Below are positions 31,693 to 35,084 of a stretch of DNA of 36,876 nt, piece after piece (the first letter of the stretch is position 1; each line of letters opens with the position of its first letter). The DNA is from an uncultured Sphingomonadales bacterium (lineage in GTDB: Bacteria; Pseudomonadota; Alphaproteobacteria; Sphingomonadales; Sphingomonadaceae): the NCBI GenBank assembly GCA_937870585.1, contig CALMZE010000134.1, forward strand, positions 1-36,876. The letters are read 5' to 3'. The translations under genes were made by a program, and so were the position numbers. Under the pieces are notes generated by a model that was not told where the DNA came from, did not search any database, and worked only from the letters and a program-made list of their open reading frames with translations.

Positions 31693-31721
31693 AGTTTAGA
31701 ACATAATAGGAACTTTTGCAA
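31693..31721 (-). promoter_or_regulatory. LexA-type promoter pointing left
   Basis: On the minus strand a -35 TTGCAA (31716-31721) and a -10 TAAACT (31693-31698) are separated by exactly 17 nt. The spacer holds a perfect GTTC-N7-GTTC (31699-31713), the alphaproteobacterial LexA box. An ATG follows 6 nt after the -10. The transcript would run toward the YdjM-like gene and recF. There is no experimental support in the sequence itself. Confidence 0.55.
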
Positions 31722-31796: not shown

Positions 31797-32690
31797 TCAG
31801 TCGATATGGCCAGCGTCGCGCAACATTCGAGCATGTTCATCTTGCTGCGGCTTGAAGGACACAAACTCTCTCGTTCCAAGACGTAACCCGAGTTTCTGCA
31901 TCAGATCGCGATCAGTCTCGGAATACAGGATTGCGATGCCTTTGGGTGCTAGACGGTCGCGGGCGCCACCATTTCGTCGAATTCGCTTCATGAAATCATC
32001 TTGCGCGGCAATGCTGGCAATCAGCACGCGGGAAACGGGCGTTTGCAGGCAATGCTCGAAGAGCAGAGCCAATCGCTCCGTTCCGCCCTTCGGTGCTATG
32101 ATCGTCTGACGGAGTTCGGCATCAATATGCGTCCAGAAATTCGGCGTGTAGGCGAAGTCCCGAACCATCCACCAAATGTTGCGCGTTCCCGCCGCAGACA
32201 GGCTGGTCTTGGCATCGCGATTCTCCCCTGCGCGCAGATAATCGCGCCGCGCCCGCACCAGACCAAAGGCACAGGTGGAGGCAATTTCGTTCACGCGCAA
32301 CAGGATGCACAATTGACCGATTGCTTCGGGAGGAATCATCCAGCCGCTGCCGCCGCCAGTGGTGGATTTCACATCCACTTCCTGCCCGCCGATCAGAAGA
32401 TCCAGCACTATGCCTTTGGGAACCTGCAACCAGTCTCGAAGCAGGATTTCAAACTTGGTTCCCAAGTATGTCTTTTCGGTCTTTTCAAGATCGGAAAGGA
32501 AGAATCGTCCGGTGCGCGCCGTATCGATCACTTCATCAATCGCTGACCGGAAGAATGACCGCAACTTTGCCTCAAATTGGTCTTGCCCACCAACGGCTGT
32601 CAGCAGATCAGTCTCCAACTTGGCCAGGTCAACATGATCCAAATGGAGTTCGGGAAGCGGCTGGCGACCGCTGCCGCCGAACAAAGTCAC
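31797..32690 (-). CDS. NaeI-like type IIE restriction endonuclease
   Basis: A 297-residue restriction enzyme similar to NaeI along its whole length, by comparison with NaeI as I remember it. Matching blocks are RTGRFFLSDLEKTEKTYLGT, VDVKST, GWMIPPEAIGQLCILL and QDDFMKRIRRNGGARDRLAP. The catalytic set aligns as Glu81, Asp97, Asp106 and Lys108. The C-terminal half corresponds to the second DNA-binding (Topo) domain of NaeI, which binds an effector site. The position of NaeI Leu43, where Lys gives topoisomerase activity, is Val54 here, so a nuclease is expected. NaeI cuts GCCGGC; the same target is likely but unproved. The GTG at 32690 overlaps the methyltransferase stop (GTGA). Confidence 0.9.
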   Translation of the reverse strand: MTLFGGSGRQPLPELHLDHVDLAKLETDLLTAVGGQDQFEAKLRSFFRSAIDEVIDTARTGRFFLSDLEKTEKTYLGTKFEILLRDWLQVPKGIVLDLLIGGQEVDVKSTTGGGSGWMIPPEAIGQLCILLRVNEIASTCAFGLVRARRDYLRAGENRDAKTSLSAAGTRNIWWMVRDFAYTPNFWTHIDAELRQTIIAPKGGTERLALLFEHCLQTPVSRVLIASIAAQDDFMKRIRRNGGARDRLAPKGIAILYSETDRDLMQKLGLRLGTREFVSFKPQQDEHARMLRDAGHID

Positions 32691-33640
32691 GCCGCCCTGA
32701 CCGCAAACAGCCGGTTCACCTGCAACGCGATGCGCAGATTGGTCGCTACAGCTTTGGCCACCGGCGGCGGAAAGGCGTTGCCGACCTGACGGTAGGCGGT
32801 CGTCTTGCGGCCATGGAACTGCCAGTCATCCGGGAAGCCCTGCAAGCGCGCGACCATGCGGACGGTGAGGCGGGGCATTCCGACAAAATCCGGATCGGGC
32901 GCGGCTTCGGCAAGGCTCTTGCCCTCCACACCCATCGTGGCCCAGGCCCGGCGGGCGCGGGTGGGGCCAAGGTCTGGCCCGCCATGTTTCTTGGAGCCGC
33001 CGACGATGGTGGGGGCAATATCGTTCGCCTCTTTCAGCCAGCGATTGACGCCGCGCCAGCCATTGGCCGCCATCAGGTCCTTTAGCGTTTCGCCCACAGT
33101 CGGCGGATTGTGCGGCAGCGCGGTGGGCCAATCAAACGCATCGGCCATATCCTTGCGCAGCGCGACAATCACCACGCGCGGGCGCAGTTGCGGCACGCCG
33201 AAATCAGAGGCGTTGAGCAGTCGCCAATCGGTATGATAGCCGAGCTTGTCCAACTGCTTCTTGAGGTGCAGGCGGTAATCCTCGAACACGGCGGAGAGGA
33301 AACCGCGCACATTTTCGATCATCACCGCCTTGGGGCGGATTTCGTCGATCAGGCGGAGGGCTGCGGGAAACAGGTTGCGCTCATCCTTCTCGCCCAACTG
33401 TTTGCCGGCAATCGAGAAAGGCGGGCATGGCAGGCCACCCGCAAGCAAATCCATGCCCTTGTAAGGTCCGCCATCAAAGCCGTTCATGTCTGCTGTATGC
33501 ACGTCCCAATGCGGACGATTGAGCCGGAGCGTCTGCGCGAAATCCGGCTCAATCTCCACCAGCGCGGGATGATCAAACCCGGCCTGTTCCAGCCCCAAGG
33601 CCTGCCCGCCCGCCCCTGCACAGAATTCGATGGATTGCAT
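32687..33640 (-). CDS. DNA (cytosine-5) methyltransferase of the NaeI-like system
   Basis: A 317-residue m5C methyltransferase that protects host DNA from the neighbouring endonuclease. Motif I is FCAGAGGQALG (6-16), the catalytic Cys72 lies in GGLPCPPFS, ENVRG is at 109-113, QLRPR (motif VIII) at 151-155, and the C-terminal RQVGNAFPPPVAKA is motif X. The target-recognition part lies between about residues 175 and 270. The gene comes first and the endonuclease second, overlapping by 4 bp. No ribosome site precedes the ATG at 33640. Instead a -10 element lies 8 nt upstream, so the mRNA is probably leaderless. A LexA box fills the promoter spacer (see regulatory entry). Genes of this type are often acquired by transfer. 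Confidence 0.93.
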   Translation of the reverse strand: MQSIEFCAGAGGQALGLEQAGFDHPALVEIEPDFAQTLRLNRPHWDVHTADMNGFDGGPYKGMDLLAGGLPCPPFSIAGKQLGEKDERNLFPAALRLIDEIRPKAVMIENVRGFLSAVFEDYRLHLKKQLDKLGYHTDWRLLNASDFGVPQLRPRVVIVALRKDMADAFDWPTALPHNPPTVGETLKDLMAANGWRGVNRWLKEANDIAPTIVGGSKKHGGPDLGPTRARRAWATMGVEGKSLAEAAPDPDFVGMPRLTVRMVARLQGFPDDWQFHGRKTTAYRQVGNAFPPPVAKAVATNLRIALQVNRLFAVRAA

Positions 33641-33648
33641 GATGTGGA

Positions 33649-33677
33649 AACTTATGTTCTTTTTCTGTTCGCGTCAA
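33649..33677 (-). promoter_or_regulatory. LexA-type promoter of the restriction-modification operon
   Basis: On the minus strand: -35 TTGACG (33672-33677), a 17-nt spacer, and a -10-like TAAGTT (33649-33654), 8 nt before the methyltransferase ATG. The spacer contains GAAC-AGAAAAA-GAAC (33656-33670), a perfect match to the alphaproteobacterial LexA box GTTC-N7-GTTC. A repressor there would block RNA polymerase. The layout is nearly the same as that at 31693-31721. Confidence 0.65.
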
Positions 33678-33682
33678 GGTGC

Positions 33683-33865
33683 CTAGTTGCAAGCGCGAAC
33701 ATGATGGGCCGCGCTCTTCCACTTCGACAACGCCAGATTTTCTGATCGCCCCTTGAAGGACAGAAATTGCCCTTTGATTGAACCGCTGGCTTTCCACACT
33801 GTCTTTGAAGTCTGAATGACGGTCACTCGACATTCTTCGCCAAGAATAGCCATATCATATCGCAC
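33683..33865 (-). CDS. Small conserved protein upstream of the methyltransferase
   Basis: A 60-residue protein on the same strand as the restriction-modification genes. The GTG at 33865 is preceded by AGGAG with a 9-nt gap, better than the other possible starts. The sequence has a strand-rich front (ECRVTVIQTSKTVWKASG), a middle GQFLSFKGRSENLAL and an end SKWKSAAHHV. This TSKTVW..SG...G..L...GRS...AL..W pattern recurs in short uncharacterised proteobacterial proteins, often on accessory DNA. It ends 42 bp before the methyltransferase gene; the LexA-type promoter lies in that gap. Function is unknown, and a link to the restriction system is only positional. Confidence 0.6.
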   Translation of the reverse strand: MRYDMAILGEECRVTVIQTSKTVWKASGSIKGQFLSFKGRSENLALSKWKSAAHHVRACN

Positions 33866-33912
33866 AGAACCCATCTCCTGTAGATAGTCCAAGCAACGCT
33901 AAAGCTACGACC

Positions 33913-33991
33913 GTCACGGGAGTAAATCCCGTGACGTCAGTCCTCGCCTTGCGAGGCTGGCCGACCGTTCGCGTCGCCGCTTCGCGGCGAC
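33913..33991. terminator. Cluster of hairpins downstream of nrdB
   Basis: Three perfect hairpins follow each other: GTCACGGGA / TCCCGTGAC (33913-33935, 9-bp stem), CCTCGC / GCGAGG (33942-33956) and GTCGCCGC / GCGGCGAC (33973-33991). A weaker GCGCAA / TTGCGC pair lies further right. They lie in the 160 bp between the nrdB stop and the small conserved gene, where an nrdB terminator is expected. No U-run follows, so factor-dependent termination or mRNA end protection is more likely than a classical terminator. Confidence 0.45.
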
Positions 33992-34025
33992 CGGCGCGCA
34001 ACTGCCTTGCGCACCTCGCTCCAGT

Positions 34026-35084
34026 TCACTCCGCCGCAATCCCCGCCTTTTCGAACATATCTTCCTCAACTTCCGCACTAACCGCCACGCCGTCATTGGC
34101 GGCCTTGGCGTTTTTGCGGCTGTCGAACGCGTCCCAGACTTCGTTCCAGTTGCCGCGCGTGGCGGCCTTGGAATATTCGGTGGCGCGGGTTTCGAAGAAG
34201 TTGGCGTGCTCTACGCCGTTCAGCAGCGGGGCGAGCCAGGGGAGGGGGTGATCGTCGATCATGTAGACCGGCTGGAAACCGAGCTGGCCCAGCCGCCAAT
34301 CGGCGATGTAGCGGATGTACTTCTTGATTTCCTTGGCGGTCATGCCCGGCACCGGACCTGCTTCGAAGGCGAGATCGATGAAGGCGTCTTCCAGCCGCAC
34401 GGTCTTCTGGCAGCAATCGATAATATCTTCCTTCACCGCCTTGGTGAGGCAATCGCGTTCCTTCACAAAGGCGTGGAACAGGCGGGTGATGCCTTCGCAG
34501 TGCAGGCTTTCGTCGCGCACGCTCCATGTGACGATCTGGCCCATGCCCTTCATCTTGTTGAAGCGCGGGAAGTTCATCAGCATGGCGAAGCTGGCGAACA
34601 GCTGCAGCCCTTCGGTGAAGCCGCCGAACATGGCGAGCGTGCGGGCGATATCCTCATCGGTATCGACGCCGAACGTGCCGAGATAATCATGCTTGTCCTT
34701 CATTTCCTTATACTGAAGGAACATGCCGTACTCGCTTTCGGGCATGCCGATCGTATCGAGCAGGTGCGAATAGGCCGCGATGTGGATCGTCTCCATGTTG
34801 GAGAAGGCGGCGAGCATCATCTTCACCTCGGTGGGCTTGAAGACGCGGCCATATTTTTCGTGGTAGCAATCCTGCACCTCGACATCCGCCTGCGTGAAGA
34901 AGCGGAAAATCTGCGTGAGCAGGTTGCGCTCATGATCGGTGAGCTTCTGCGCCCAATCGCGGCAATCCTCGCCCAGCGGCACTTCCTCCGGCATCCAGTG
35001 CACCTGCTGCTGGCGCTTCCAGAAATCATAGGCCCAGGGATATTCAAAGGGCTTGTAGGTCTTGCGGGCTTCGAGAAGGGACAT
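34026..35084 (-). CDS. nrdB: Ribonucleotide reductase class Ia, beta subunit
   Basis: A 352-residue ferritin-like protein that generates the tyrosyl radical used by NrdA to make deoxyribonucleotides. Diiron and radical residues are visible: Asp67 in QADVEV, Glu98 and His101 in NMETIHIAAYSH, and the radical Tyr105 in the same block. The second Glu-Glu-His set lies near DESLHCEG. The C-terminal acidic tail (EEDMFEKAG) is the usual docking peptide for NrdA. AGGAG before the ATG at 35084 lies within the last codons of the DUF559 gene. It would normally follow nrdA directly; here a DUF559 element separates them by 485 bp. Transcription through the element is needed if both share a promoter. Confidence 0.95.
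   Translation of the reverse strand: MSLLEARKTYKPFEYPWAYDFWKRQQQVHWMPEEVPLGEDCRDWAQKLTDHERNLLTQIFRFFTQADVEVQDCYHEKYGRVFKPTEVKMMLAAFSNMETIHIAAYSHLLDTIGMPESEYGMFLQYKEMKDKHDYLGTFGVDTDEDIARTLAMFGGFTEGLQLFASFAMLMNFPRFNKMKGMGQIVTWSVRDESLHCEGITRLFHAFVKERDCLTKAVKEDIIDCCQKTVRLEDAFIDLAFEAGPVPGMTAKEIKKYIRYIADWRLGQLGFQPVYMIDDHPLPWLAPLLNGVEHANFFETRATEYSKAATRGNWNEVWDAFDSRKNAKAANDGVAVSAEVEEDMFEKAGIAAE

Follow-up and report, generated by a model that had tools for sequence, protein, structure and literature searches.

A probable LexA operator in the putative promoter of a NaeI-family restriction-modification operon of an uncultured sphingomonad, and its recurrence at related alphaproteobacterial methyltransferase loci

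What controls a type II restriction-modification (RM) operon whose promoter appears to contain a binding site for the DNA-damage repressor of the host? The question is raised by a 36,876 nt stretch of DNA (hereafter the window) from an uncultured Sphingomonadales bacterium, which forms contig C134 of a 3.8 Mb genome. On the minus strand it carries an M.NaeI-like C5-cytosine DNA methyltransferase of 317 aa (32687–33640, Pfam PF00145, E 2.5e-70), in which the blocks CAGAGGQA, PCPPFS, EN and GNAFP are invariant columns across 14 homologues, and a NaeI-type restriction endonuclease of 297 aa (31797–32690, minus strand, Pfam PF09126, E 1.2e-56), whose GTG start and the methyltransferase stop share 4 nt. 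The endonuclease aligned with the NaeI crystal chain 1ev7_A (E 1.8e-33) with conservation of the E/D/D/K residues, which we take to be the catalytic residues of NaeI. A PF09126 endonuclease adjoining a C5 methyltransferase, two features expected of a NaeI system, are both found here, and from these families the M-R operon is predicted to be a type II RM system of the NaeI family with GCCGGC as the expected site. Avoidance of GCCGGC was discarded as a sign of long-term restriction, being unspecific (6/8 G+C palindromes were depleted in 111 kb of the genome). In PADLOC the methyltransferase scored highest against Druantia DruM models, followed by type II methyltransferases, so that M.NaeI may be closely related to DruM.

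The operon lies 385 nt from nrdB (ribonucleotide reductase, 34026–35084), which is upstream of it. Judged by eye, an RM operon also follows nrdB in a Sphingomonas metagenome-assembled genome (L046), there with an NgoMIV-like partner, and the nrdB-adjacent site is possibly an insertion hotspot. The usual regulators of type II systems were sought in both the intergenic DNA and the methyltransferase itself. The six frames of at least 35 aa that overlap 33641–34026 (nrdB excluded) gave no helix-turn-helix match of the kind expected of a C-protein-type control gene (Pfam, E 0.1); one frame of 69 aa (33683–33892, minus strand), which ends just upstream of the promoter, had no Pfam or PADLOC match. 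The methyltransferase begins shortly before motif I and has no N-terminal helix-turn-helix, nor any Pfam domain besides DNA_methylase.

The candidate operator is the sequence GAACAGAAAAAGAAC (33656–33670, minus strand), an exact GAAC-N7-GAAC, which when read from 33670 to 33656 lies within the 17-nt spacer (33671–33655) of a putative promoter. It is immediately preceded by a −35-like TTGACG (33672–33677, minus strand) and followed by a −10-like TAAGTT (33649–33654, minus strand), the latter weak with 3/6 matches to TATAAT, and the methyltransferase ATG at 33640 stands 8 nt past TAAGTT on the same strand. Because the ATG is this close to the −10 element, the methyltransferase transcript may be leaderless. 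This arrangement, which an earlier note made from the sequence alone had described, was confirmed, as was its count of two perfect boxes at about the chance level; the TTGACG/TAAGTT pair was absent from the output of a consensus promoter scan. The window holds exactly two perfect boxes against a mean of 0.66 in shuffled sequence, with at least two in 14/100 shuffles, so that the number of boxes in the window carries no meaning by itself. Across the whole genome there are 92 GAAC-N7-GAAC sites and 103 for the backwards control pattern, and an excess of boxes was rejected as evidence, since neither the window nor the genome is above chance.

The second perfect box, GAACATAATAGGAAC (31699–31713, plus strand), is located 3' of the endonuclease gene and is flanked on the minus strand by TTGCAA and TAAACT; the 77-aa frame that follows it has no Pfam match. 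As ydjM is an SOS gene in E. coli, GAACATAATAGGAAC was considered as a ydjM operator, a candidate we dropped on finding no exact box in 17 other ydjM-homologue loci (19 fetched).

Whether the box is a LexA operator was approached through the SOS genes of the same organisms. The earlier note had taken GTTC-N7-GTTC as the LexA box of alphaproteobacteria, which agrees with the available text of two papers, one giving it as the alphaproteobacterial motif (PMC3323433) and the other as that of Caulobacter (PMC12700426). The motif was found upstream of lexA in 16/16 operon-bearing alphaproteobacterial genomes checked (a start codon was assigned in 14) and upstream of recA in 15/16. In the window genome the single LexA_DNA_bind match is on contig C81, its frame preceded by a box that starts 24 nt upstream, and only one base separates the recA box, GAACACAAAAAGAAC, from that of the operon. 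Boxes also precede three other genes: one that is imuA-like (L019; NCBIfam E 1.6e-9, under the cut-off), another imuA-like frame recognised by eye (L034), and rmuC (L018). A class-specific LexA-type operator in the promoter and a LexA gene in the genome, two sequence features expected of an SOS regulon gene, are both present. The known SOS regulon (recA, lexA, imuAB) uses the same operator (GTTC-N7-GTTC or GAAC-N7-GAAC) in the same genomes, but its targets serve repair and mutagenesis, whereas the target here is an RM operon.

The spacers of the boxes were then compared between 47 of 50 extracted RM boxes, 35 recA/lexA boxes and the 92 genome sites (two near-identical Leisingera rows and L061 were dropped, L086 was omitted owing to its short flank, and the farther of two boxes was used for L054). 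Against this background, which consists of the sites of one genome only, the last spacer base was a purine in 41/47 RM boxes and 31/35 SOS boxes compared with 45/92 genome sites (p 7e-6 and 4e-5), and the third in 39/47 and 32/35 compared with 54/92 (p 0.004 and 0.0003). At the first spacer base the purine preference was significant for RM boxes only (SOS 30/35 vs 63/92, p 0.07). Spacer G+C was 28% in RM boxes, 46% in recA/lexA boxes and 52% in genome sites, and some spacer positions differed as well. A matrix built from the RM boxes of other genomes ranked the operon box 3, GAACATAATAGGAAC 4 and the recA box 5 of the 92 sites, with the two imuA-like boxes and the rmuC box at 7 to 9. With a recA/lexA matrix the operon box ranked 12 of 92 and the known SOS sites 20, 23, 42 and 43, and as it places known SOS sites so low this matrix is a poor discriminator.

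The earlier note had named absence of the box from orthologous operons as one result that would count against its reading. A search for the NaeI gene in 396 genomes of the order gave 14 positives, the window genome included, a scan with the methyltransferase alignment contributed the best 80 of 424 as named loci, and two more came from a phylum-wide search. Of 98 M.NaeI-like loci four were removed (L008, with no upstream sequence; L011, L016 and L038, identical to L044, L015 and L004), which left 65 alphaproteobacterial loci, that of the window among them, and 29 others; the upstream sequence of L015 was taken from L016 in the same genome. Start codons were set by homology or annotation, and boxes were scored in either direction within 160 nt upstream, a limit of our own choosing. 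The exact GAAC-N7-GAAC was present in 51/65 alphaproteobacterial loci compared with 1/29 of the others, and with at most one mismatch in 59/65 compared with 6/29, in a sample that is uneven and in which loci within one clade are not independent. Control spacers of 3, 4, 5, 6, 8, 9, 10 and 11 nt gave exact matches in 1, 0, 1, 1, 0, 2, 0 and 2 of the 65 loci, and CAAG-N7-CAAG in none of them. The upstream stretches have otherwise diverged, with more than 60% identity only in three Leisingera pairs (ungapped, in start-codon register), and the nearest box lies anywhere from −18 to −117, in both directions. TTGA[CA] occurs at most 10 nt before the box in 10/40 forward boxes, the window box included, and the whole geometry TTGAC-box-(A/G)TA recurs in ten loci, again counting that of the window. 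The exact box is missing in 14/65 alphaproteobacterial loci, among them all four from Acetobacteraceae/Acidocellaceae (L047, L064, L073 and L089), and the motif stands upstream of lexA in 3/4 genomes of that group. In a second sample, from a class-wide search with matches in 11/385 genomes (the genome of the window itself, the duplicate L187 and L190, whose start was not found, were not counted), five of eight new assessable loci carried the exact box, two had one mismatch and one was without. The box is therefore present in orthologous operons in both searches and, together with the motif at lexA and recA of the same genomes, this supports the reading of the promoter as LexA-type.

Outside the class the only exact box was in L060 (JAFKDC010000022.1), labelled Enemella evansiae (Actinomycetota). 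Its assembly holds a lexA that is 71% identical to that of the alphaproteobacterium G625; L060 was accordingly rejected as a non-alphaproteobacterial owner of the box, and on this sequence match the record is evidently mislabelled or mixed. The Gram-positive LexA motif is given as GAAC-N4-GTTC in the available text of PMC3323433, and the actinomycete locus L111 has such a box, GAACACATGTTC, at −96, with GAAC-N4-GTTC also upstream of the lexA of its own genome. The close actinobacterial homologues L175–L177 had no box, the more distant L178 had GAAC-N4-GTTC at −191, and a phylum-matched box was not upheld as a rule for actinobacteria, only L111 among the four closest having one. Exact CTGT-N8-ACAG was found in 0/29 loci of the other groups and, with one mismatch, in 5/29 compared with 0/65 alphaproteobacterial loci.

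A methyltransferase tree of 93/94 rows (L093, with a mis-started frame, was omitted) placed most boxed loci together. One large group of 60 rows had the box in 49/56 alphaproteobacterial rows and in L060, while among the remaining 33 rows the single boxed one was Brevundimonas L086, the other seven alphaproteobacterial rows there (Acetobacter, Komagataeibacter, Paracoccus, Rhodobacter, two Falsigemmobacter and Pseudooceanicola) being without an exact box. As the box tracks one large methyltransferase clade, part of the count reflects shared descent. The partner genes vary: a NaeI-type gene is found in the same stretch in 42/51 boxed loci, the boxed L039 and L074 have an NgoMIV partner, in L051 and L060 an HNH gene adjoins the methyltransferase on the opposite strand, and the boxed L086 has neither a NaeI match nor an obvious endonuclease among its neighbouring frames (by eye). 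The gathering of the box in one tree group implies that it is a lasting part of one operon lineage, kept as the partner changes.

The other C5 methyltransferase loci of the same 16 operon-bearing genomes were taken as a negative control, with tandem genes counted once and L240 (a 117-aa frame) omitted. As a control this failed, for 6/13 loci had an exact box no more than 160 nt from the frame and all other spacers gave 0/13, and it became the main extension of the analysis. The boxed loci include an EcoRII-type system (L252), two Eco29kI-type systems (L263 and L264) and two with other or unknown partners (L256 and L258). Also counted among the six is L260 (2645–6929), in which a C5 methyltransferase is divergent from uvrA and one LexA-type box is common to both. 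Amino-methyltransferases (PF01555) were scored in 30 of 36 rows, accepting any possible start and including several fragments without a clear one, and under these terms 3/30 had an exact box: L268, L285 (the box lying inside an open frame) and L291. The contrast between C5 and amino-methyltransferases (p 0.014, or p 0.04 without the box shared with uvrA) points to a moderate preference of the box for C5 enzymes.

Two of the amino-methyltransferases merit description. L268, in genome G214, is CcrM-looking and cut at a contig end, with an exact GC-rich site ~116 nt before the likely start, and 15 CcrM-looking amino-methyltransferases in other genomes had no such site. The window genome itself encodes an N6/N4 methyltransferase joined to a nuclease domain of the Mrr type (L022/L244) with a perfect box 232 nt before the likely start; conservation of this box was not borne out, since exact sites within 350 nt were seen in just one of six homologues from five relative genomes, L245, and the spacers there are GC-rich.

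Plasmids showed a similar pattern. One search contributed 30 of 3919 matching records, and of the 76 hits listed in all 23 were examined (20 alphaproteobacterial and three not), picked by organism before any box was seen. The box was present in 14/20 alphaproteobacterial C5 loci, with 0–1/20 for other spacers, and no exact box was found in the three non-alphaproteobacterial loci. Loci related to the EcoRII-type methyltransferase of L252 were boxed in 11/13 cases, two of the 13 promoters (L298 and L299) being near copies, in hosts as varied as Sphingorhabdus, Croceicoccus, Rhizobium, Agrobacterium, Neorhizobium, Pseudosulfitobacter and Roseinatronobacter, whilst 2/4 Eco29kI-related and 1/3 M.NaeI-like plasmid loci were boxed. 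A vsr gene is annotated beside the methyltransferase in 11/14 boxed plasmid loci, and such frequent company hints at a rationale connected with 5-methylcytosine. L307, L308 and L255 have vsr genes ahead of their C5 methyltransferases, and LexA-type boxes lie in these genes or close to their 3' ends (within the gene in L255), resembling the box inside Caulobacter vsrA. Judged by these loci, LexA control of C5-type RM looks recurrent in Alphaproteobacteria and not an oddity of this operon, although it is not universal. We think it likely that LexA acts as a general master switch of alphaproteobacterial C5 type II RM on chromosomes and plasmids, with the unrelated NaeI, NgoMIV, Eco29kI and EcoRII/MvaI types repeatedly recruited into the SOS regulon as a damage-gated immune layer that would also answer self-cutting.

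Our preferred reading, to which we assign a probability of roughly 0.85, is that the NaeI-family operon is under a LexA operator placed between −35 and −10, and that SOS induction yields the methyltransferase and then the endonuclease, with feedback from self-cutting as the likeliest benefit. What the sequences establish is that the box exists, where it lies, that it is conserved and that it agrees with the motif upstream of recA and lexA in the same genomes; from this we infer LexA binding, repression, SOS induction and a benefit to the cell. In an undamaged cell LexA would cover the promoter and keep both enzymes low. RecA filaments would form on single-stranded DNA arising from damage, stalled forks, phage DNA or cutting of under-methylated host sites by the endonuclease, and LexA cleavage stimulated by RecA would release the methyltransferase, followed by the coupled endonuclease. 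The benefit may be self-cutting feedback, an immunity boost under attack or re-methylation of repaired DNA. Feedback seems the most likely of these, as cuts at host sites would raise the methyltransferase, the first gene, and restriction would rise too while foreign DNA is damaged.

A chance match in the promoter spacer is the simplest alternative and would fit the unremarkable number of boxes in the window, yet the exact box in most alphaproteobacterial loci, kept in diverged upstream stretches with near-empty spacer controls, contradicts it, and we consider it extremely improbable. The box might instead serve the methyltransferase itself, or a different regulator that recognises the same letters. 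Autoregulation is described for methyltransferases carrying an N-terminal helix-turn-helix in the available part of a review (PMC12707154), and a box that tracks a methyltransferase clade would suit either regulator. The window enzyme, however, starts shortly before motif I and has no other Pfam domain, and the short frames separating nrdB from the operon matched no helix-turn-helix family. The box differs among loci in orientation and distance, the same motif precedes lexA, recA and an imuA-like gene, and unrelated C5 systems carry it, all of which argue against a different regulator; we regard this explanation as very unlikely.

A third explanation accepts LexA but assigns it another purpose, namely renewed methylation of DNA after repair, or low expression of a C5 methyltransferase that is mutagenic, with the endonuclease riding along. 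It draws on the methyltransferase being the first gene, on Brevundimonas L086, boxed without a recognisable endonuclease, and on the company of Vsr, which mends deaminated 5-methylcytosine, at most boxed plasmid methyltransferases. A parallel comes from Caulobacter, where, in the part of PMC12907096 available, loss of the YGCCGGCR methyltransferase ScmA induces SOS via VsrA and vsrA holds a GTTC-N7-GTTC box. Set against this, the NaeI-type gene held by most boxed loci would be co-induced, and C5 enzymes are favoured over amino-methyltransferases only moderately. We hold this purpose to be possible but the less probable account, and retain damage-induced expression of both enzymes with self-cutting feedback as the preferred reading.

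The operon can thus be set beside several known systems. It has in common with the type IIE NaeI system the PF09126 endonuclease family and a C5 methyltransferase partner, and differs in the LexA-type box of its promoter. M and R would be controlled at transcription, as in type II systems with C proteins or self-regulation, but here there is no match to a C-like gene and no methyltransferase helix-turn-helix, and the damage repressor of the host would be in control. The Caulobacter pair likewise links a C5 methyltransferase to SOS through the LexA box in vsrA, but ScmA is solitary, vsrA is unlinked, and LexA control of ScmA is not reported in the available text (PMC12907096). The E. coli symER locus is described in the accessible parts of PMC1891008 and PMC3874152 as SOS-induced and LexA-repressed; it shares SOS induction with the proposed operon, but is a toxin-antitoxin locus and not a set of restriction genes.

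The earlier note took SOS control of a type II system to be unusual. The available text of PMC12707154 lists promoter methylation, methyltransferase repressors, antisense RNA and C proteins as means of RM regulation, with no occurrence of LexA and no description of SOS control, and in that of PMC3874152 SOS and LexA concern the consequences of restriction or toxin-antitoxin loci. Judged by title or the start of the abstract, no report of LexA control of a type II system appeared among the matches listed, and an earlier mention in LexA-regulon surveys or supplementary tables is possible. The box is not peculiar to this operon and recurs at unrelated C5 systems.

The recurrence of this predicted switch before related systems suggests an immunity tied to DNA damage. 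If the C5 systems of the whole class are SOS genes, the level of restriction would vary according to DNA damage, antibiotics and phage attack, with consequences for plasmid uptake, the efficiency of transformation and phage-host assays in sphingomonads, rhizobia and roseobacters. The old problem of how cells withstand their own restriction enzymes would then become directly testable.
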